Both the position numbers and the translations under genes were made by a program. From IMG/VR virus record IMGVR_UViG_3300044701_003951, positions 1-48,414 of that record: DNA of 48,414 nucleotides. One strand, 5' to 3'. Of the stretch, positions 4,858 to 46,022 are shown one piece after another. How positions within the stretch are numbered: the stretch's first letter is position 1; each line of letters begins with the position of its first letter. Under the pieces are notes generated by a model. It was not told where the DNA came from. It searched no databases and saw only the letters and a program-made list of their open reading frames with translations. This stretch comes from a virus.

Positions 4858-5733
4858 ATGACTGCCGCAGAGTTGCGCACGTACGATGCCGAGCACTGCT
4901 GGCAGTACGACATCCGTCTGCGCAACCTCGCTGCCGACTTGGAGGAGGTCGGTCTGTCCGTGGAACGTGCCGCTGCGCTGACGGTTGCCGACTTCGAGTT
5001 CCGTCCGCTCGACACGCCCGACGAGCGTGCTGATGCCGCTGAGTTCATCCGCCGACACGAGTGGCTGGGGAACCTGTCGCAGTACACGACGCACTGGTTC
5101 GGTGCGTACCACGGACCGCACCTTGCGGGCGTGCTGCTGTTCAACATGCCGAACGCTTTCTCGCACCTGCTCGGTCCCGACACGCCGGAACTGGAGCGGC
5201 TGCTCTCTCGTGGTGCGTGCATCTCATGGTCACCTAAGAACCTTGCGTCGGCGTTCGTCTCGTGGGCGACACGGTGGATGGTCGACCACACGCAGTACCG
5301 CCTGTTCACTGCGTACTCCGACCCGATGGCTCGTGAACTGGGGACGATCTATCAGGCGTGCAACTGGTACTACCTCGGGCAGCGTGCGGGGGCGACGGTG
5401 CGCTACGTCTCGCCGTACACGGGCAAGGTGGTGTCCGACCGTTTCTTCCGCCAGCGGACGGCGTACCGCCACTACGCCCGTGAGTTGGGTCTCGACTGGG
5501 ATCGCTCGTGGGTGACCCCGACGGGGATGGCGTGGGCGAACGTCCCGCCGGATGTCGAGGCTGCGCTGCGCCAGAGGTCTCGTGACGTGCAGGCTGCGGC
5601 TACGCCGGTGACGGTGCCGCCGAAGCACAAGTATGCGCTCGTGCTCGGGCGTGACCGCTCCGAGACCCGCCGCCTGCGCCGACTGTTCGAGGAGCGCAAC
5701 AGGACGTTCCCCTACCCCAAGGTGCGCTGCTGA
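4858..5733 (+). CDS. Mom-like GNAT-fold acyltransferase (putative DNA-base modification)
   Basis: 291 aa. It resembles phage Mu Mom, a GNAT-fold enzyme that adds a carbamoylmethyl group to adenine in phage DNA. Features: H80-F-G-A-Y-H and 'LAGVLLFNMP' (89-98), 'GACISWSPKNLASAF' (119-133) in the place of the family's conserved N-x-x-S-x-F segment, 'LFTAYSDPMARELGTIYQ' (149-166) and NWYYLG (169-174). The C-terminal part is basic and probably contacts DNA. Mom protects phage DNA from host restriction. The neighbours (glycosyltransferases, methyltransferases, an ABC-GNAT fusion) fit a modification role. Substrate and base are unknown. Confidence 0.75.
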   Translation: MTAAELRTYDAEHCWQYDIRLRNLAADLEEVGLSVERAAALTVADFEFRPLDTPDERADAAEFIRRHEWLGNLSQYTTHWFGAYHGPHLAGVLLFNMPNAFSHLLGPDTPELERLLSRGACISWSPKNLASAFVSWATRWMVDHTQYRLFTAYSDPMARELGTIYQACNWYYLGQRAGATVRYVSPYTGKVVSDRFFRQRTAYRHYARELGLDWDRSWVTPTGMAWANVPPDVEAALRQRSRDVQAAATPVTVPPKHKYALVLGRDRSETRRLRRLFEERNRTFPYPKVRC

Positions 5734-5942
5734 TGATCTCGAAGGTGGTGACGAACCCCTGCCCTTTCTGCGGGATCATGGAGATGGTCGACGTGCCGAC
5801 GGAGGGGCTTCAGCGCTGGCAGGGCGGCGAGTTGATTCAGGTGGCGCTGCCCGACCTCTCGATCGAGTTGAGGGAGTTGCTGATCTCGGGGACGCACCTC
5901 GTGTGCTGGGACTTGCACATGGGTGAGGACGACGAGGATTGA
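5733..5942 (+). CDS. Small CPFCG-motif conserved protein
   Basis: 69 aa, ATG overlapping the previous TGA by 1 nt. The N-terminal CPFCG knuckle suggests zinc binding. The rest ('LPDLSIELRELLISGTH', CWDLHMGEDDED) resembles short conserved actinophage proteins of unknown function. Confidence 0.65.
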   Translation: MISKVVTNPCPFCGIMEMVDVPTEGLQRWQGGELIQVALPDLSIELRELLISGTHLVCWDLHMGEDDED

Positions 5943-5978
5943 TGTCACGTCCCCGACCGCATCGTGCGTAGTACCACC

Positions 5979-6425
5979 ATGACCAACACACTGACCCACC
6001 CCACCGACATCGAGCGCCCGAGCATCGAGCGCCTCACCCTGATGATCAACGAGGCGCTGCACTGCGTCTCGAAGGGCGAGGTGTTCCCGAACGACCGCCT
6101 GACGGACATGCTGCTCGACATGCGGACACTCGCTGAGTCGGCGCTCAAGAGCCAACTCTCGCTCGCTCGCCACTACAGCGACCTGCTGAAGTTGCACACG
6201 GTCCGACCGACGGAGCCGACGTTCGAGTTGGTCGCCAAGGGGATGGTGCTCGCCGAGACGGAGGACCATGACGTGATGGCTTGCTGCTTGAAGCGTGGGG
6301 AGTGGATGATCGTCATCTTCAAGGCGGGCACCGACACGGACGGCGTGGAGGTGGAGGGCGTGTTCGATCGCGACGGCGTGCGCCGCTTCGTCACCGACAT
6401 GTTCAACAGTGAGCGGAAGGGCTAG
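5979..6425 (+). CDS. Hypothetical protein
   Basis: 149 aa. The N-terminal half is helical (MLLDMRTLAESALKSQLSL), and the C-terminal half is beta-rich with CCLKRGEWMIVIFKAG. A possible -10 TAGTAC lies 4 nt before the ATG and no clear Shine-Dalgarno is present. Not recognised. Confidence 0.6.
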   Translation: MTNTLTHPTDIERPSIERLTLMINEALHCVSKGEVFPNDRLTDMLLDMRTLAESALKSQLSLARHYSDLLKLHTVRPTEPTFELVAKGMVLAETEDHDVMACCLKRGEWMIVIFKAGTDTDGVEVEGVFDRDGVRRFVTDMFNSERKG

Positions 6426-6428
6426 GAT
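6423..6428 (+). promoter_or_regulatory. Leaderless -10 box TAGGAT
   Basis: TAGGAT followed by 6 nt (CGCCGA) and the GTG at 6435. No ribosome-binding site lies between them. The box overlaps the stop codon of the previous gene. Confidence 0.7.
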
Positions 6429-6434
6429 CGCCGA

Positions 6435-7190
6435 GTGCCTGATCTTCCCGAACGTCTTGCCGACTACGCCCGCAACCCACAGGGGTGGGCGGTCGTCCCC
6501 ACCGAACTGCTGCACGAGGCATCGGTGAGGGTGTCACGTGTGCCGCTTGCCGACGTGGTGATCCCCACGAAGAGCAACCGTGAGGGCGTGCAGCGGCTGG
6601 TCGACGTGCTCACCACCGCCCCCTTCGTGGGGCGTGTTGTGATCGTCGGCGACGGCGAGAACGCCACCGACCTGTCGGCAGTGCACGTCCCTCTCGGGGC
6701 TGGCATCCACGTGATGTGGAACAAGGGGATGCGACTGTGCGCCCCCGACCGCCACGTCCTGTTCCTGAACGATGACGTGACGATCGACGAGCGGACGGTC
6801 TCCGGTCTCGTGCACACGCTGGAGGAGCATCCCGAGGTCGGTCTGGTCTGCCCCAACTACAGCGGCGAGTCGTTCGAGGGTGCGTACCGAACGGTGACCG
6901 ACACGTGCCGAGGTCGCTACGACGGGACGGGTGGCATGGCGGGGTTCGCCATGATGCTGCGCAACACGCTCGCCAGAGAGTGGCGCTTCGACGAGGCGAT
7001 GAAGTGGTGGTACGGCGACGACGACATCGTGATGTGGGTGACCCGCACGAAGGGCATGAAGGCTGCGATCTCTGCGTGGTCGACGTGCGCCGACAACGAG
7101 TCGTGGACGATCCTCCACGACCCTCCGCCGACGTTCACTGCGGACGTGGAGAACGACCGACGGCTCTTCGAGCAGAAATGGGGCAAGTGA
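6435..7190 (+). CDS. Family 2-like glycosyltransferase (GT-A fold)
   Basis: 251 aa, GTG start at the leaderless promoter. After about 38 residues the GT-A core begins with 'LADVVIPTKSNREGVQRLV' (38-56). The metal/nucleotide-sugar motif LFLNDDVTID (110-119) takes the place of the DxD motif. The acceptor-side segment has GTGGMAGFAMMLR and WWYGDDDIVMW, typical of GT2 enzymes. It probably transfers a sugar to a phage component or modified base. Two further glycosyltransferases and two methyltransferases follow within 5 kb. Confidence 0.85.
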   Translation: MPDLPERLADYARNPQGWAVVPTELLHEASVRVSRVPLADVVIPTKSNREGVQRLVDVLTTAPFVGRVVIVGDGENATDLSAVHVPLGAGIHVMWNKGMRLCAPDRHVLFLNDDVTIDERTVSGLVHTLEEHPEVGLVCPNYSGESFEGAYRTVTDTCRGRYDGTGGMAGFAMMLRNTLAREWRFDEAMKWWYGDDDIVMWVTRTKGMKAAISAWSTCADNESWTILHDPPPTFTADVENDRRLFEQKWGK

Positions 7191-7699
7191 TGCACGGTGA
7201 GGTGACGGAGTGGCTGCGCAACTCGACAGAGGTTCCGTGGGAGGGTGCGCACGTTGTCGAGGTGGGGAGCGCCGACTGGAACGGTCGTGCCTCCGACTAC
7301 GTCTCGGGGTGGGCATCGTGGATCGGGGTCGACATCGCACCCGCTGCGAACGTCGACATCGTCGGCGATGCGATCGAGGTGCTGCCGACGCTCGACCCCT
7401 GCGACATCGTGGTGACGACGGAGGTGTTCGAGCACACTGCGCAGTGGTGCGACATCGTCGCTGCGATTGCCGGTGTGCTGCGTCTCGGGGGCTGGATGGT
7501 CGCCACGTGTGCGGGCACCGGTCGACCGGTCCACAGTGCGGACGGTGCGCCGACGCTGAAGCCCGACGAGCACTACGCCAACGTCTCGCTGCACGAGTTG
7601 CGTGCGTGCGCAGAGGCGTATGGGATTGAGATGGTGAGGGGCGAGGAGGGTCCGCCCGGGGACACCCGCTACATCGGGAGGCGGACCAGTGCATTCTGA
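7190..7699 (+). CDS. SAM-dependent methyltransferase (small-molecule/sugar type)
   Basis: 169 aa, ATG overlapping the previous TGA. Motif I is VVEVGSADWNG (22-32), the acidic strand-2 end is IGVDIA, and motif IV is DIVVTTEVFEHT, typical of class I methyltransferases of the type-11 kind rather than DNA methylases. Being coupled to the GT2 gene suggests it methylates a sugar or related group. Confidence 0.8.
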   Translation: MHGEVTEWLRNSTEVPWEGAHVVEVGSADWNGRASDYVSGWASWIGVDIAPAANVDIVGDAIEVLPTLDPCDIVVTTEVFEHTAQWCDIVAAIAGVLRLGGWMVATCAGTGRPVHSADGAPTLKPDEHYANVSLHELRACAEAYGIEMVRGEEGPPGDTRYIGRRTSAF

Positions 7700-7853
7700 C
7701 TGCTGCTGCCACGTCGACCTGCCGAGAGCCTCGCGCCGGTGGAACCATCGGGTGTGGCTCTGCGACATATGCTTTGCTCAGTGGACGGTGATCCGTGCGG
7801 GGTTCTCCGGTGACTCGTGGTGGCAGTGGATCGAGGTGCCCGATGAGCGTTGA
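7689..7853 (+). CDS. Small zinc-finger-like protein
   Basis: 54 aa, GTG start inside the end of the methyltransferase gene (11-nt overlap). CCCH near the N-terminus and CDIC in the middle could form a single zinc site. The C-terminal half is Trp-rich (GDSWWQWIEV). Its end overlaps the next glycosyltransferase start. Function unknown. Confidence 0.55.
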   Translation: MHSDCCCHVDLPRASRRWNHRVWLCDICFAQWTVIRAGFSGDSWWQWIEVPDER

Positions 7854-8430
7854 CGTGACGGTGTGCATCCCGACGATCCCCCCGAGGCGGCAGATGCTCG
7901 CTCGTGCGATCGACTCGTGCTCCCGACAGACGGTGCCGGTGGCGGCGATTGCAATCGCACAGGACAGGGACGGTGACGGTGCGTGGGCGACGAGGAACAG
8001 GGCGCTCGCCATGTCGAGGTCGGAGTGGACGGTGTTCCTTGACGACGATGACGAGTTGCTGCCGCACTACGTGGAGAGCCTGTCTGCGTTCGCTCGTGAG
8101 CACGAGGCGGATGTCGTGTGGGGCTGGTTCGAGGTGAGGGGCGGCACCGACCCCTTCCCTCACTACAGGGGTCGGCAGTTCGACCCTCAGAACCCTCACA
8201 TCGTCCCGATCACGTACATGGCTCGTACGGCGGTGCTGCACGAGGCGCTCGCCACGATGGGAGGTTTCGCTGCCGACACGGGTGGCGGCTCGTGGGACGT
8301 GCAGGACTTCCCGATCATGCGGGCGATGTTCGAGACGGGTGCCCGCTTCTATGCGTCGGACGAGACGGTGTGGCGCTGGCACCACCACGCTGCGAACACG
8401 AGCGGTCTGCCGACGAGGTGGAAGCGGTGA
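7843..8430 (+). CDS. Family 2-like glycosyltransferase (GT-A fold)
   Basis: 195 aa. The start 'MSVDVTVCIPTIPPR' is the first strand and nucleotide-binding loop of a GT2 domain. 'RAIDSCSRQTVPVAAIAIAQD' follows, then the DxD-type motif TVFLDDDDELLP (63-74), and later GGGSWDVQDFPIMRAM with the putative catalytic acid. It is shorter than typical GT2 proteins but the core looks complete. It differs enough from the 6435 gene to suggest a different acceptor or sugar. Confidence 0.85.
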   Translation: MSVDVTVCIPTIPPRRQMLARAIDSCSRQTVPVAAIAIAQDRDGDGAWATRNRALAMSRSEWTVFLDDDDELLPHYVESLSAFAREHEADVVWGWFEVRGGTDPFPHYRGRQFDPQNPHIVPITYMARTAVLHEALATMGGFAADTGGGSWDVQDFPIMRAMFETGARFYASDETVWRWHHHAANTSGLPTRWKR

Positions 8431-8600
8431 CGACCCGTGAGACTGTCGAGCGACTGTGGGCGGTGCTGGAGGTCGGCAACCAGATGGCGAACCTGCTCCG
8501 CTACATGGTCGAGGTGCTGGGTGAGGACGACGAGATTGTGATAGAAGTGATCCGTCCGTTGCTGAGTGAGTGGGAGGCTACTAGTGGGATCATGGATTGA
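8427..8600 (+). CDS. Small hypothetical protein
   Basis: 57 aa, GTG start overlapping the previous stop (GTGA). All-helical with many hydrophobic residues (VGNQMANLLRYMVEVLG) and acidic segments. It overlaps the start of the membrane protein gene that follows. Not recognised. Confidence 0.55.
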   Translation: MTTRETVERLWAVLEVGNQMANLLRYMVEVLGEDDEIVIEVIRPLLSEWEATSGIMD

Positions 8601-8826
8601 GTGGCTGACGGTAGCGTTCGTGCTACCGCTGCCGATTGCAGTGTGGTGGCTGGACCGTCGCCGAGAGCGGCTGTTCTTCGAGGCGCTGTTCGCTGAGCGC
8701 CAGCGCTCTGAGCGGCTCGCCGGTGCGCTCCAGCGCCTGCTCGCTCACGAGACCCCCGAGTCCCGTGGTGCGGCGCTGGATGCGCTGTGGACGTACCGAG
8801 AGAGCGAGTTGATCAGTGAGCGCTGA
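8584..8826 (+). CDS. Small single-span membrane protein
   Basis: 80 aa. An N-terminal hydrophobic segment 'WLTVAFVLPLPIAVWWL' (about 7-23) is followed at once by RRRER, so the C-terminus is probably cytoplasmic. The rest is helical (RQRSERLAGALQRLLAHE). An inverted repeat CGGTAGC-N6-GCTACCG (8609-8628) lies in the coding part for the membrane segment. Function unknown. Confidence 0.6.
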   Translation: MGSWIEWLTVAFVLPLPIAVWWLDRRRERLFFEALFAERQRSERLAGALQRLLAHETPESRGAALDALWTYRESELISER

Positions 8827-8986
8827 CGATGCGATGACGATGGTGACGGAGTCGAGGCGCTCGTGGAGGTCGTGCGCTCTTGAGTTGGCGGACGTGCTCG
8901 GCGAGTGCACGTTCTCCGACCCCGAGCAGGCGATGAGGGCGTTCACCATCCTGTGCGAGGTGCGGGCGATGAGCGAGGTCGACTGA
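8816..8986 (+). CDS. Small hypothetical protein
   Basis: 56 aa, GTG start overlapping the previous gene by 11 nt and TGA overlapping the next ATG. Helical with three Cys (SCALEL, LGECTF, LCEVRAM). No family recognised. Confidence 0.5.
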   Translation: MSADDAMTMVTESRRSWRSCALELADVLGECTFSDPEQAMRAFTILCEVRAMSEVD

Positions 8987-9159
8987 TGACGTTCGACGAG
9001 TGGCTGACGCACGGCATCGTGGAGGGGTGGGTGAGCGTGCCGGTGTGCGCCATGCACGACGGTCTGCCGACGACCCCCGAGGAGGAGGGCGAACTGGACG
9101 AGGGCTTCGACCCCTGCCTGTCCGCTCTGCGCCTGTGGGGACCGGAGGGTATGCCGTGA
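8986..9159 (+). CDS. Small acidic hypothetical protein
   Basis: 57 aa, ATG overlapping the previous TGA by 1 nt. Begins MTFDEWLTHGI and is acidic later (EEEGELDEGFD). It is coupled to the DNA methyltransferase gene (GTGA overlap). Function unknown. Confidence 0.5.
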   Translation: MTFDEWLTHGIVEGWVSVPVCAMHDGLPTTPEEEGELDEGFDPCLSALRLWGPEGMP

Positions 9160-9800
9160 CCCCGACACATCCTGCGCGCTTCTCAGCGTCCCTGATGCCG
9201 GTGATTGCCGACATGCTCGCTGCCCACGGGCACGAGGGCATGTGGGTGCTGGACCCCTTTGCCGGTGTGGGCGGGGTGCACGCCCTGCACCCACGGTTCG
9301 AGACGGTGGGCGTGGAGATCGAGCCGGAGTGGGCGAGCGCCCACGAGCGGACGATCGTCGGCAACGCTCTTGACCTACCGTTCGCTGCGCACACGTTCGA
9401 TGCGGTGGTCACGTCGCCGACATACGGCAACCGCATGGCGGACCACCACGAGGCTCGTGACGGCTCGAAGCGGATCACGTACCGGCACCGCCTCGGGCGA
9501 CCGTTGAGCGCCGACAACACGGGGCAGTTGCAGTGGGGCGACAAGTACCGTGAGTTCCACGTGCGTGCGTGGTCGGAGGTGGCTCGTGTGCTCCGCTCTG
9601 GTGGGCTGTTCGTCCTGAACGTCTCCGACCACGTCCGCAAGGGGAGCGTGGTGCCGGTGATTGACTGGCACGTCTCTGCGATCGAGGCGCTGGGGATGAC
9701 GCTGCTCGAACACCGTACGGTGCCGACCCCTCGGATGCGGTTCGGTGCGAACGGTGCCGCTCGTGTCGACCACGAGTCGGTGGTGGTGTTTCGCCGATGA
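9156..9800 (+). CDS. DNA methyltransferase (N6-adenine/N4-cytosine type)
   Basis: 214 aa. Motif I is LDPFAGVGG (about 31-39), with the acidic residues VGVEIEPEW after it. The catalytic motif IV is TSPTYGNR in place of the usual T-S-P-P-Y of N4C/N6A methylases; the second Pro is Thr here. Motif I precedes motif IV. 'LRSGGLFVLNVSDHVRKG' is the strand-6 region. A target-recognition domain is not obvious at this size. It probably methylates phage DNA for protection or as part of the modification set. Confidence 0.8.
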   Translation: MTPTHPARFSASLMPVIADMLAAHGHEGMWVLDPFAGVGGVHALHPRFETVGVEIEPEWASAHERTIVGNALDLPFAAHTFDAVVTSPTYGNRMADHHEARDGSKRITYRHRLGRPLSADNTGQLQWGDKYREFHVRAWSEVARVLRSGGLFVLNVSDHVRKGSVVPVIDWHVSAIEALGMTLLEHRTVPTPRMRFGANGAARVDHESVVVFRR

Positions 9801-10861
9801 GTGAGGACTGGCTCCCTCTGGAGCGCTCGACAACGCCGATGACGTGCATGGTGGAACTGGACGATGTCACGAGGGCGCTCGTGGCACCGTTCGACTACGA
9901 GACCGACGGCACCGAACGGTTCTACCCGTTCACTGTCCCGAGCGACCTACCGTCCGACTTCGGGATCGGCGTGATCGTCGGTGCGTCCGGTACGGGGAAG
10001 AGCACGCTGCTGCGTTCGTTCGGTGACGTGTCGAGAGCGGAGTGGTCTCCCGACCTGTCGATCGCCGCTCACTTTGCTGATCCTGTCGAGGCGATGGAGC
10101 GGCTCTCTGCTGCCGGTCTGATGTCGGTGCCCGACTGGGTGAAGCCGTGGCATGTCCTGTCCACGGGTCAGCGGTTCCGTGCCGACCTCGCTAGGTGCCT
10201 GCACGACGGTGCGGTGGTCGACGAGTTCACGAGCGTGGTGAGTCGAGACGTTGCGAAGGCAGCGTCGGCTGCGATGGCTCGCTACGTCCGTAGTGAGGGC
10301 GTTCGGCGCATCGTGGTGGCGACCGTCCACCGTGACGTGCTGGAGTTTCTCGAACCGGACTTCGTGATCGACACCGACCGTGGTGAGTGGTCGTCGGGGA
10401 GGTGGCTTCGGCGACCCGAACTGGTTCTCGAAGTTCGTCCTGCCCACCACTCCCTTTGGCGCTACTTCGCTGAGCATCACTATCTCAGCGGGTCGATCAA
10501 CCGAGCGTCACACTGCTACGTGGCATTCTGGAACGGCATCGTCGTTGGGTTCGCCGCAGTGATCGCCTACCCGAGCGGGACATTGAAGAGCGCATACCGT
10601 GAGCACCGGCTCGTGATCCTCCCCGACTTCCAAGGTCTCGGGTTCGGTCCTCGCCTGTCCGAGGCGGTCGCTCGGCACTACACGGAGAGCGGCAAGCGGT
10701 TCTTCTCGAAGACCGCTCACCCTCGTCTCGGTGAGTACCGTGACGGATCGCCGAGATGGAAGGGTACGTCGAAGAATCACATCCGTCGTTCTGACATGAG
10801 GCTCGACGCACGGTGGACGAGTGTTGGTCGATGGTCCTACTCGCACGAGTTCATCGGATGA
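9797..10861 (+). CDS. ABC-type ATPase fused to a GNAT acetyltransferase domain
   Basis: 354 aa with two domains. The N-terminal ATPase has Walker A 'GASGTGKST' (62-70), an ABC signature-like LSTGQRFR (121-128, cf. LSGGQ), Walker B AVVDEF (139-144) and an H-loop His178 (TVHRD). It lacks membrane segments and is short, so it is a soluble ABC ATPase rather than a transporter. The C-terminal domain is a GNAT fold, with 'LVILPDFQGLGFGPRLSEAV' (272-291) as the acetyl-CoA loop. Such fusions occur in mobile elements; their substrate is not established. Start ATG overlaps the DNA methylase stop, suggesting joint action with it. Confidence 0.8.
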   Translation: MSEDWLPLERSTTPMTCMVELDDVTRALVAPFDYETDGTERFYPFTVPSDLPSDFGIGVIVGASGTGKSTLLRSFGDVSRAEWSPDLSIAAHFADPVEAMERLSAAGLMSVPDWVKPWHVLSTGQRFRADLARCLHDGAVVDEFTSVVSRDVAKAASAAMARYVRSEGVRRIVVATVHRDVLEFLEPDFVIDTDRGEWSSGRWLRRPELVLEVRPAHHSLWRYFAEHHYLSGSINRASHCYVAFWNGIVVGFAAVIAYPSGTLKSAYREHRLVILPDFQGLGFGPRLSEAVARHYTESGKRFFSKTAHPRLGEYRDGSPRWKGTSKNHIRRSDMRLDARWTSVGRWSYSHEFIG

Positions 10862-11904
10862 GGGTTTATGTCTTCCCTGCCGACGTTGCGGGGTGTGGGC
10901 ACCAGCGGTTGATCCGCCCTGCCGAGACGCTGCGTGCGCTCGGTCACGACGTGTCCGTCTTCAAGCCCGGGGAGCAGGACCACTTCCCGATCACCATCTT
11001 CGAGCGGGGCATGATGCGCTCGCTCACGCTCGACATCGACGAGTTCGATGCCGACGTGGTGGTGATTCAGCGACCACTCGACTGGAAGTGGCAGTACGTG
11101 ATCCCAAAATTGAAGGCAATGGGCGTGAAGGTGATCGCCGATCTGGACGACGACCTGACGGCGATTCGCGTGGGGCATGCGATGTGGGGGACGGTCGACC
11201 CCATCAACAATCGCGACCAGAACTGGAACCATTTGAAGAAGGCGATGCTGCAAGCCGACACGGTGACGGTCTCGACACCGGCGCTCGCTAAGCGGTTCGG
11301 GCGGAGCGGCTCGACGATCGTGATCCCGAACTGCGTCCCCGAGAGTTACCTGAACGTCACCGCTGATCGCTCCGACCGTCTCGTGGTGGGGTGGACGGGG
11401 TCGGTCGCTACGCACCCCCACGACCTGAACGTCCTCGGTCCCTCTCTCCCCGAGGTCGCACGCACTGTCCCGTTCGAGTGGAGGGTCGTGGGCAGTGGGT
11501 ACGGCATCCGTTCGGTGACGGGGATGGAGCCGAGCGTCGTCTCGTACGTTCCGATCGACGAGTACATCCACGAGGTCGCACGCTTCGACGTGGGCGTGGT
11601 GCCGCTGGCGCTGCACCCCTTCAATGAGGCAAAGAGTTGGCTGAAGGGTCTGGAGATGTCGTCGGTGGGCGTGCCGTTCGTTGCATCTGCAACGAGTCCG
11701 TATCTCGAACTCGTCGCCCACGGTGCGGGCATGATCGCCGACCGACCTAAGCACTGGTCGGCAATGCTGAGGCGGCTGCTCACCGACGAACCGTTCAGGG
11801 CGGACATGTCTGCGGCGGGGCGCGAGGTCGCCCGACTGTGGACGTTCGAGGCGAACGCATGGCGCTGGGAGGAGGCGTGGCTTGGCAATCGGCAGCGACC
11901 CTGA
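10858..11904 (+). CDS. GT-B fold glycosyltransferase (GT4-like)
   Basis: 348 aa, ATG overlapping the previous TGA (ATGA). The N-terminal Rossmann half begins 'MRVYVFPADVAGCGHQRLIR' and has 'PAETLRALGHDVSVF'. The C-terminal half has 'VGWTGSVATHPHDLNVL' and later FNEAKSWLKGLEMSSVGVPF, where the E-x-x-x-x-x-x-E region of GT4 enzymes usually binds the sugar nucleotide. It probably uses a nucleotide sugar; the acceptor is unknown. It closes the modification island. Confidence 0.8.
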   Translation: MRVYVFPADVAGCGHQRLIRPAETLRALGHDVSVFKPGEQDHFPITIFERGMMRSLTLDIDEFDADVVVIQRPLDWKWQYVIPKLKAMGVKVIADLDDDLTAIRVGHAMWGTVDPINNRDQNWNHLKKAMLQADTVTVSTPALAKRFGRSGSTIVIPNCVPESYLNVTADRSDRLVVGWTGSVATHPHDLNVLGPSLPEVARTVPFEWRVVGSGYGIRSVTGMEPSVVSYVPIDEYIHEVARFDVGVVPLALHPFNEAKSWLKGLEMSSVGVPFVASATSPYLELVAHGAGMIADRPKHWSAMLRRLLTDEPFRADMSAAGREVARLWTFEANAWRWEEAWLGNRQRP

Positions 11905-12085
11905 GATCGGGATGCGGTTCTCCCGTTGGGGGCAGATGTCCGACGTGGAGAGGGAGGCGTGGTTCGACCACATGCGTGCGACCTTCGAGCATCACGCTAT
12001 GGGGGGCTACGGAAAGTTGTGTGAACCCGACCCCGAGTTGCGGCGGTTCTTCACGGAGACGGCGTGGGCATCGGTGATGACTTGA
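11882..12085 (+). CDS. Small hypothetical protein
   Basis: 67 aa. A TTG start at 11882 is chosen because GGGAGGAGG sits a few nt upstream inside the previous gene; an ATG at 11912 is the alternative. Sequence includes MSDVEREAWFDHMRATFEHH and an acidic/aromatic end. Its stop is next to the class II promoter at 12082. Confidence 0.5.
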   Translation: MAIGSDPEIGMRFSRWGQMSDVEREAWFDHMRATFEHHAMGGYGKLCEPDPELRRFFTETAWASVMT

Positions 12086-16258: not shown

Positions 16259-18139
16259 ATGATCATCACCGAGGATCGTTCGAAGGTCACCAACACGCTG
16301 AGCGGCGAGGTCTCGCAGTTCAGCATCGCAACGAACGCCAAGGCGTTCCGAGTGCTGGTCGACGGCATCTACGCCGACAAGATCGGCAGCATCACTCGTG
16401 AGTTGCTCAGCAACGCTTTCGATGCGCACACCCGCCGAGGCAATCTCGACACGCCGTTCGAGGTGCGCATCCCGAACCCTCTCAACCCGACGTTCAGCGT
16501 GCGCGACTACGGCTGCTCGATGGACCACGAGTTCGTGATGCGCTCGTACTCGACGCTGTTCGAGTCGAGCAAGGCGGACTCGAACACGGAGGTCGGTGCG
16601 TTCGGTCTCGGTGCAAAGGCGTTCCTCGCCTACACCGATGCGTGCACGCTGACGTGCTGGAGCGACGGCGAGGTGCGCAACTACTCGATCTCGATCGCCG
16701 ACAGCGGTGTGCCGGAGGTGCGGCTCGTGCACCGTGGACCGAGCACCGCTGAGCAGGGTGTCGAGGTGACGTTCGCTGTAGCGCACACCGACTTCGTCGA
16801 ATTCCGCCGTGCGGCGCTCCGCTGCGCTTACGGCTTCGACACGCTGCCGACGTTCATGGGCGACGATGTCTCGCCGGTCGAACCCGACTTCAATGGTGAG
16901 GGCTGGCGTTTCTGGCGGAACGGTCCGCTGACGGAGTCACGCATCGCAGTGCGGCAGGGCTGCGCCATCTACCCCACGAACGTCGGTGGGTGGCTGGTGC
17001 CGATGAATGCGCTGCTCATCGTCGACACGCCGATTGGTACGGCGAACGTCACCGCCTCTCGCGAGAGCCTCGCACTGACGAGCGCTCAGAGGGACGGCAT
17101 CGACGAGCGTGTGCGTGCGGCGCTCGAAGCGCTCGGCAAGCAGGTGGAGACGCTGTACCACGCTCAGCCGACGGAGATTCGCAAGGCGCACTTCGCCCAC
17201 GAGAACCGCCCCCTGCTCCCGAAGGACGGCGACTTCCCCACGACAGTGCAGTCGCCCCAGTCGCTGCACAAGTGGGACGCTGGCTCGCTGGCTCCGTACG
17301 ACCGGTGGTCGGTGCAGAACCTGACCAAGATCGTGCTCGTGCACGACGACGGCACGCCGGTGCTGCGCCGTCTGCTGCGCCTGCGTGCGCTCTGCAAGAC
17401 CCGCTCCGTCTACATCGAGACCGACCTCAATCGCCTGAAGGAGATGCACAAGTTCCTCGAACTCGACAGGTCGCAGTTGGTGCGGCTCGTCGACATCCCC
17501 GACGTGCAGGTGCGGCGCTCCCCGAGGGGCACCTCCTCGACCTCCACGCCGAAGGTGAAGAAGGAGGTCGCTCAGGACGTGGTGTGGGCGGTGTGCAACC
17601 GCAACAAGTGCGAGGCTGGTCCGCTGAAGTGGCACCGCACCGACGAGCACGTTGGGCAGCACTCGGGCGTGACGAGCCACGTCGCTCGCTGGATCGGCGA
17701 GGTGGTGGAGCGCACGAGCGGCAGCAAGCCGGTGCTGTTCCTCACCACCGCCGAGATGGAGAGGGCGCTCTCCAAGGGGACGATCGATCCAGAGTTGCGC
17801 ATCGACCGAGTGGTCGCTCGTGAACTCGACTCGCCGACGCTGCACGACCAGTTGCTGAACTGGCTCGTCCACCGCCAGATGAACGTCGAGTGCGCCCACC
17901 ACGCCCGCCGAGCGATGTTCGAGGTCGCCGGTGTCAGCGATCTCGGCACGCCGTTCTCCCTCGGTGCGCTGTTCGCCATGATGAAGTCCGACGTGTTCCG
18001 CCGCTGCGAGCAGGAAGCGATCGCTACCGTTCGAGCGCTCAAGCAGCGCTACCCTCTGTTGTTCAACAGCACCGCCGACGCTGTTGTCCAGCAGTACATC
18101 GCCATGTGCGATGCAGCATCCACGAGCAAGGTCGCTTGA
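16259..18139 (+). CDS. rIIA: rIIA-like protein with GHKL ATPase domain
   Basis: 626 aa. The N-terminal GHKL (Hsp90/gyrase/MutL-type) ATP site has the N-box 'TRELLSNAFDAH' (46-57; E48, N52, D55), a D83-Y-G-C-S loop in the G1 position and 'EVGAFGLGAKAFLAY' (111-125) in G2. The order and the adjacent rIIB match T4 rIIA. In T4, rIIA and rIIB are membrane-associated and protect infection against the RexAB exclusion system; the mechanism is not settled. The C-terminal 300 residues are less conserved. Confidence 0.85.
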   Translation: MIITEDRSKVTNTLSGEVSQFSIATNAKAFRVLVDGIYADKIGSITRELLSNAFDAHTRRGNLDTPFEVRIPNPLNPTFSVRDYGCSMDHEFVMRSYSTLFESSKADSNTEVGAFGLGAKAFLAYTDACTLTCWSDGEVRNYSISIADSGVPEVRLVHRGPSTAEQGVEVTFAVAHTDFVEFRRAALRCAYGFDTLPTFMGDDVSPVEPDFNGEGWRFWRNGPLTESRIAVRQGCAIYPTNVGGWLVPMNALLIVDTPIGTANVTASRESLALTSAQRDGIDERVRAALEALGKQVETLYHAQPTEIRKAHFAHENRPLLPKDGDFPTTVQSPQSLHKWDAGSLAPYDRWSVQNLTKIVLVHDDGTPVLRRLLRLRALCKTRSVYIETDLNRLKEMHKFLELDRSQLVRLVDIPDVQVRRSPRGTSSTSTPKVKKEVAQDVVWAVCNRNKCEAGPLKWHRTDEHVGQHSGVTSHVARWIGEVVERTSGSKPVLFLTTAEMERALSKGTIDPELRIDRVVARELDSPTLHDQLLNWLVHRQMNVECAHHARRAMFEVAGVSDLGTPFSLGALFAMMKSDVFRRCEQEAIATVRALKQRYPLLFNSTADAVVQQYIAMCDAASTSKVA

Positions 18140-18189
18140 TCGTGGTAGAGTCCCCCCAGCAAGTCCCGACCAATCAGGAGGTCACTGTC

Positions 18190-19068
18190 ATGTCCACCCC
18201 GTTCCCGTACATCCTGACGGACCAGTCGCTCACGTTCTACGTGGACGGCACCCCGCATCAGGTGCTCCGTGATCACCCTCAGTTCTCGCACATCGTCGAG
18301 GCTGTCGAGGCTGGTGATCCCATCGCTGTCGAGTTGACGAAGCCGATCGTGAAGGTGATCGAGGCGCTCGTCGACCTCACGCCCACCACCGACTCGGAGC
18401 GCTGGTCGCGCCGTGCGGCTGGCACGCTGGAGGTGACGGAGTGGGGCGTGACCCTCGACGGCAAGTCGATCAACGGTCACGTCATCGACCGTCTCATGGA
18501 CGTGCTGAAGGCGGGCATGGACCCGACCCCGTGGGCGAACTTCGTGCGCAAGTTGCACCAGAACCCGAGCAGCACGAGCCGCACCGAACTGTACGGCTGG
18601 CTGGAGAAGAGCGGGATGCCGATCACCCCCGACGGTGACTTCCTCGCCTACAAGCGCATCCGCTCCGACTACCGAGACATCCACTCCGGCACGTTCGACA
18701 ACAGCGTCGGTCAGGTCGTCGAGATGGCTCGCCTCGACGTGGACGACGACCGCAACCGCACGTGCTCGTCGGGTCTGCACTTCTGCTCGAAGGACTACCT
18801 GCCGCACTTCGGTCGCAACGGCAGCGAGGATCGGGTGGTGCTCGTGAAGATCAACCCCGCCGACGTGGTCTCGATCCCCGCTGACTACGACGACACGAAG
18901 GGTCGCACGTGGCGCTACGAGGTCGTCGGTGAGATGACGCTCGAAGAGGCGGGTGTCCGTGACTGGGAGCCGATCTCGTACGAGTTCGGTGACGACGACT
19001 TCGACGACGAGGACGACTTCGACATCTGGTCGGAGTTCGATGACGAGGACGAGGACGACCTCGTCTGA
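18190..19068 (+). CDS. rIIB: rIIB-like protein
   Basis: 292 aa, start preceded by CAGGAGG. The C-terminal half has the hallmark order of rIIB proteins: GDFLAYKRIRSDYRDIHSG, FDNSVGQVV, 'CSSGLHFCSKDYL' and 'VVSIPADYDDTKGR'. A very acidic tail ends the protein. It is expected to act with the rIIA product made 50 nt upstream. A hairpin right after the gene probably ends the transcript. Confidence 0.88.
   Translation: MSTPFPYILTDQSLTFYVDGTPHQVLRDHPQFSHIVEAVEAGDPIAVELTKPIVKVIEALVDLTPTTDSERWSRRAAGTLEVTEWGVTLDGKSINGHVIDRLMDVLKAGMDPTPWANFVRKLHQNPSSTSRTELYGWLEKSGMPITPDGDFLAYKRIRSDYRDIHSGTFDNSVGQVVEMARLDVDDDRNRTCSSGLHFCSKDYLPHFGRNGSEDRVVLVKINPADVVSIPADYDDTKGRTWRYEVVGEMTLEEAGVRDWEPISYEFGDDDFDDEDDFDIWSEFDDEDEDDLV

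Positions 19069-43328: not shown

Positions 43329-46022
<2,694 letters not shown>

Follow-up and report, generated by a model that had tools for sequence, protein, structure and literature searches.

Phage Mu Mom (the methylcarbamoylase mom, PDB 8bv8) is the described counterpart of the Mom-family protein discussed here, and fusions of an ABC ATPase to a GNAT domain (ABC-GNAT, phrog_11143) are widespread in phages, with a role as acyl modifiers of a DNA base predicted since 2013 (Iyer et al. 2013, as presented in a review by the proposing group, PMC7824862). The literature searched holds no experimental demonstration of an ABC-GNAT protein acylating a DNA base. Glycosyltransferases accompanied by a methyltransferase are described in cluster O mycobacteriophages, where an O-methyltransferase and three glycosyltransferases are reported to modify the capsid and tail tube (Freeman 2023, as cited in PMC11600133). 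The window analysed here, a 48.4 kb viral contig with a GC content of about 64% (IMG/VR record IMGVR_UViG_3300044701_003951), carries enzymes of all these kinds in one packed operon. We favour, with somewhat better than even confidence, a reading in which this operon comprises two interleaved modules: module A, which would mark DNA, and module B, which would make a methylated glycan, likely on the virion. The analysis establishes what the genes are, the folds predicted for Mom and ABC-GNAT, the linkage of the genes and an exchange in one gene slot; the chemistry, the acceptors and a role against restriction are inferred from these.

A sequence-only reading had listed a Mom-like transferase, two GT-A and one GT-B glycosyltransferases, a small-molecule methyltransferase, a DNA methyltransferase and an ABC-GNAT fusion on one strand. 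Family searches, motifs and two high-confidence structure models bear out this list, locating all seven enzymes at 4858–11904 and every one on the plus strand:

4858–5733, plus strand: Mom-family acyl/carbamoyl transferase of a long subfamily (about 290 aa), module A (PF25680, 3e-15; phrog_1384, 4e-18; model matches 8bv8).
6435–7190, plus strand: GT-A-type glycosyltransferase (GTA1), module B (PF00535, 4e-4, below cut-off; homologue of Zuko gp108).
7190–7699, plus strand: small-molecule-type S-adenosylmethionine methyltransferase (MT1), module B (Methyltransf_23/11; PF13489, 2e-7; phrog_32762, 6e-17).
7843–8430, plus strand: GT-A family 2 glycosyltransferase with a DDDD motif (GTA2), module B (PF00535, 1.5e-12; phrog_14775, 1e-35; 39% to Zuko gp106).
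9156–9800, plus strand: PF01555 DNA amino-methyltransferase with motifs DPFAGVGG and SPTY, module A (PF01555, 1e-11; relatives in Vibrio phages eugene and helene).
9797–10861, plus strand: ABC-ATPase-GNAT fusion, module A (phrog_11143, 1.7e-93; Acetyltransf_1, 1e-7; model pLDDT 90.5).
10858–11904, plus strand: GT-B glycosyltransferase, module B (PF13692, 2e-6; phrog_7162, 3e-43).

Greedy longest-ORF (open reading frame) calling, which misassigned frames in this GC-rich window, was not used for the window genes. The comparison set comprised more than 200 related loci (numbered with the prefix L).

The most useful result is an exchange of genes in the slot overlapping mom. A scan of viral contigs with the window Mom returned 74 loci with relatives; PF01555 DNA methyltransferases lie near mom on the same strand in 25 of them, and a larger PF01555 methyltransferase, whose ParB-like N-terminus was judged by eye only, is found in 6. 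In L018, L020, L022 and L023, the mom start codon is overlapped by an ABC-GNAT gene. L025 matches L018 and L023 at 79–80% DNA identity to about position 7046, and the match resumes at about position 8962; the intervening segment of L025 holds two tandem PF01555 methyltransferase genes, the second overlapping mom. A PF01555 methyltransferase occupies the same place, again overlapping mom, in L017 and L054, and in the Mom tree L025 is nested within the ABC-GNAT group. Because either ABC-GNAT or PF01555 methyltransferases fill the slot overlapping a related mom in otherwise syntenic contigs, ABC-GNAT is tied to the Mom/methylase pathway. The exchange offers a functional connection that is specific and open to experiment, and it indicates which gene sets to express. 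ABC-GNAT may be viewed, tentatively and at rather less than even confidence, as a working DNA-base acyltransferase, interchangeable or cooperating with Mom and the DNA methyltransferase, such that up to three amino-group marks, including one chemically new acylated base, could arise.

The window Mom scores 56.8 bits against PF25680 (cut-off 27.1 bits), which places it in the family by sequence. Its AlphaFold2 model (pLDDT 90.7) finds phage Mu Mom 8bv8 as the best PDB match (E = 1e-8), with a TM-score of 0.62–0.72 by target length, and the family profile matches 8bv8 at E = 4.5e-13. In the profile alignment, S131, the invariant serine of the family, stands opposite the alanine in the P-R-N-S-E-A motif of 8bv8, an alanine that would correspond to the S124A site of the entry title. 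The window protein is thereby predicted, from model and alignment, to contain the Mom fold and its conserved core serine. It resembles Mu Mom in family, fold and core motif, but differs in belonging to the long subfamily of about 290 aa, in its N-terminal HCWQYDIR region and C-terminal insertion, and in sharing only about 14–15% identity across the structural match.

In the ABC-GNAT fusion, the Walker A, LSxGQ, Walker B and H-loop residues are conserved, and the model (pLDDT 90.5) has PDB matches among ABC nucleotide-binding domains and GNATs and to TmcA (2zpa), so that a single chain combines an intact ABC ATPase with a GNAT domain. TmcA is an NTPase-GNAT tRNA cytidine acetyltransferase, and the match to it is loose (TM-score 0.29 by query). 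A weak phrog_11143 match carries little meaning, since the profile matches all 14 control genomes, and only near-full-length matches were counted. Compared with the known fusions of this family, the window protein has the same full-length architecture at 26–67% identity, but its setting differs from that in several phages, with Mom present in the operon and the upstream overlap formed by a PF01555 methyltransferase. Specifically, ABC-GNAT overlaps a ParB_N gene in Javan141, EastWest, Jace, LE3 and Pmp13 (the Jace and LE3 matches fall below the Pfam cut-off), whereas no ParB_N partner overlaps the window gene. As a separate observation from sequence inspection, close ABC-GNAT relatives in L111, L116, L117, L119, L120, L121, L126 and L153 precede a serine-recombinase-like gene and, in most of these eight loci, also a convergent glycosyltransferase-like gene, possibly forming a mobile cassette.

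The association of ABC-GNAT with Mom extends beyond the slot itself. Mom also lies near ABC-GNAT in L010/L011 and L131 and at 1–3 kb from it in L157 and L174, while L012 and Aeromonas phage PX29 encode both within one genome. As many loci are near-copies, lineages were counted rather than rows: ABC-GNAT is next to Mom or close to it in about three (the L018 group, L010/L011 and L131), to which L157 and L174 and the two same-genome cases are added. Speaking against a close functional tie, Mom occurs on only 7 of the 80 close ABC-GNAT contigs, so the pairing is recurrent and not obligatory; near-versus-far distance statistics for Mom on these contigs were not significant (P = 0.09). A division of ABC-GNAT into a Mom-partnered and a ParB-partnered clade was dropped on the same count. 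The scarcity of Mom on the contigs of most close relatives would also suit another explanation, unlikely in our judgement, in which ABC-GNAT acylates a protein or small molecule and not DNA, its position beside mom and the methyltransferases reflecting a mobile anti-defence slot. The repeated swap with PF01555 DNA methyltransferases in the slot overlapping mom argues against this, as do the ParB_N overlaps elsewhere and the appearance, if loosely, of a nucleic-acid base acetylase (TmcA) among the structural matches. GNATs are nonetheless versatile, some phage GNATs acting on host proteins (PMC7824862), and the L023 slot beside mom also carries a cytidylyltransferase-like gene (PF01467, L023:7455–7889) immediately upstream of ABC-GNAT.

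Under the favoured assignment of module A to DNA, Mom would transfer a carbamoyl- or acyl-type group to the N6 amino group of adenine, while the PF01555 enzyme would methylate exocyclic amino groups. ABC-GNAT would serve as a third amino-directed base modifier, its ABC domain engaging DNA in an ATP-driven cycle and its GNAT domain transferring an acyl group from acyl-CoA. Jointly, these enzymes could render the genome resistant to host restriction. In the Vibrio phages eugene 12A10 (L098:5992–6628) and helene 12B3 (L099:3992–4627), the homologue of the window DNA methyltransferase has been split in annotation into a pair of ORFs that differ in frame. Both records show this at one and the same position; the break lies near motif IV and may represent a frameshift, a sequencing error or decay.

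Module B has its own relatives. The GTA1–MT1–GTA2 order is identical in the Streptomyces phages Zuko and KimJongPhill, which carry a related GT-B gene elsewhere in the genome. GTA1, whose PF00535 score of 20.7 bits lies below the 23.3-bit cut-off and is weak on its own, corresponds in position to Zuko gp108 and is homologous to it (27%, E = 4e-10). The idea that GTA1 and GTA2 are duplicates of each other was unsupported (profile comparison probability 8%). GT-B, GTA1, methyltransferase and GTA2 genes are likewise grouped in L208, L219, L234 and L240, with a PF13640 2-oxoglutarate/Fe(II) oxygenase gene between GT-B and GTA1; the same family is represented by Zuko gp109 (L094:3823–4467). Weak PDB matches of this oxygenase include prolyl 4-hydroxylases, a similarity which suggests that the acceptor may be hydroxylated before glycosylation in these cassettes; no PF13640 match is present in the window. 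Neither Mom nor ABC-GNAT occurs in L208, L219, L234, L240 or Zuko, and Zuko further differs from the window by its cassette oxygenase and by a UDP-glucose dehydrogenase gene next to GT-B. Mom is found on 1 of the 50 methyltransferase contigs, too few for a contrast.

This separate occurrence bears on the proposal, raised in the sequence-only reading, that the enzymes together build one glycosylated or acylated base: in a single hypermodification route, Mom and ABC-GNAT would acylate or otherwise derivatise the base, the glycosyltransferases would glycosylate it and the sugar would then be methylated. We consider such a route very improbable, because the modules are found apart (the cassette without Mom and ABC-GNAT, and Mom and ABC-GNAT without these glycosyltransferases), because no thymidylate synthase homologue was found in the window, and because capsid gene clusters harbour relatives of MT1. 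The search for a thymidylate synthase homologue or a hydroxymethylase covered the 48 kb fragment of an incomplete genome, and its Tet_JBP component had no positive control. A DNA-modifying role is supported for Mom, the DNA methyltransferase and ABC-GNAT and is less likely for the remaining enzymes. Treating the glycan cassette and the DNA set as separate units keeps the operon from being misannotated as one hypermodification system.

Several observations nevertheless pull the other way and would suit one shared route. All genes of both modules lie in one packed operon, in which start/stop overlaps run unbroken from GTA1 to GT-B; this run includes the overlap of the GT-B start with the ABC-GNAT stop and could reflect a single pathway. 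Phages with DNA glycosyltransferases exist, a MazG-like gene is present in the window, and Zuko-type genomes, the relatives of the cassette, encode a divergent thymidylate synthase, a dCMP deaminase and MazG, a set that would fit modified DNA in those phages; because of the divergent thymidylate synthase, DNA glycosylation is possible in Zuko-type phages. In addition, the GT-A and methyltransferase genes of the window and of Zuko are not adjacent to recognised head genes, those of the window being themselves unrecognised. Operon coupling alone is not proof of one pathway, since tight packing is also seen among the replication genes of the same phage. In Zuko, thymidylate kinase, MazG, thymidylate synthase-like and dCMP deaminase genes are clustered before DNA polymerase I (L196:5555–9479), an arrangement compatible with modified pyrimidines.

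For the glycan half, modification of virion proteins, which the sequence-only reading had offered as the alternative to DNA, is the better reading, as MT1 relatives often lie in capsid clusters. The closest MT1 relative (L198, 57%) is located between the major capsid gene and the tail terminator, with a glycosyltransferase gene on the capsid side of the methyltransferase and a GT-B gene after the tail terminator. Of 23 contigs carrying both genes, 17 have an MT1 relative no more than 5 kb from the major capsid gene, where 12.0 would be expected (P = 0.011); contigs of at least 15 kb give 9 of 15 (P = 0.026). Both statistics ignore relatedness among contigs. Glycosyltransferase and methyltransferase genes also stand among capsid genes in phiPsal1 and S-CBS4. 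The cluster O phage Firecracker (gp33–36) resembles the window in combining a methyltransferase with several glycosyltransferases, but its genes lie between the portal and capsid protease genes, whereas the window cassette lies away from visible structural genes; pairwise comparison of GTA1 with Firecracker gp34–36 gave no significant similarity.

In module B as favoured here, the GT-A, methyltransferase, GT-A and GT-B enzymes would decorate virion proteins with a short methyl-capped glycan: one glycosyltransferase would start the glycan and the others extend it, and the methyltransferase would cap a sugar or its precursor. A virion protein is a likelier acceptor than DNA or a host glycan, and by analogy the capsid and tail tube are candidate acceptors with precedent. 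Within the window, the strongest candidate acceptor is a threonine-rich tail fibre:

43329–46007, minus strand: collagen-like tail fibre (phrog_5073, 3e-89; triplet count).

This protein contains 126 Gly-X-Y triplets, with threonine at Y in 91, and in C. difficile BclA3, O-glycans are attached to threonine in the GPT repeats (PMC7157674). Viewed apart from the DNA set, the cassette suggests virion glycosylation by an uncultured actinophage. A further explanation keeps module A as proposed and directs module B, during infection, to a host surface glycan or teichoic-acid-like polymer, so that receptors would be masked or the serotype converted. In its favour, GTA2 has one PHROG match (2e-5) to GtrB-like O-antigen conversion proteins, and phage glycosyltransferases are used in this way (PMC7824862). 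The top PHROG match of GTA2 is, however, a plain glycosyltransferase family, the scanned genes include no recognisable membrane-anchored flippase or acceptor-modifying protein, and the MT1 relatives in capsid clusters also argue against a host target, which we hold to be quite unlikely.

Regarding gene arrangement, the coupling claimed from sequence holds in detail: the genes from 4858 to 12085 lie on the same strand and are closely spaced, each start codon from 6435 to 12085 overlaps the preceding stop by 1–23 nt, and the junctions from 4858 to 6435 measure -1, 21 and 9 nt. Several ORFs of 54–80 aa without informative matches are interleaved with the enzymes, and two further genes follow mom directly:

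5733–5942, plus strand: small ORF of unknown function (phrog_20898, 5e-7, unknown), in TGATG overlap with the mom stop.
5964–6425, plus strand: 153 aa protein of unknown function, with no Pfam or PHROG match.

The source phage is probably an actinobacterial siphophage, since its DNA polymerase I is closest to sequences from actinobacterial phages, with rIIA/rIIB, helicase, exonuclease and Sak4 genes on the plus strand and tail genes on the minus strand. Scanning the window ORFs revealed no recognisable terminase, portal or major capsid gene, and the genome is therefore likely incomplete. Single-protein scans found no relatives of GTA2 or of the window polymerase in viral contigs, so a close sister of the whole phage is unavailable. 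The rIIA and rIIB homologues of this probable actinobacterial siphophage are located at 16259–19068, and upstream of the operon, at 971–1566, a 29 nt GGAGG-containing repeat occurs four times at a spacing of 169–202 nt, possibly marking the start regions of small genes.

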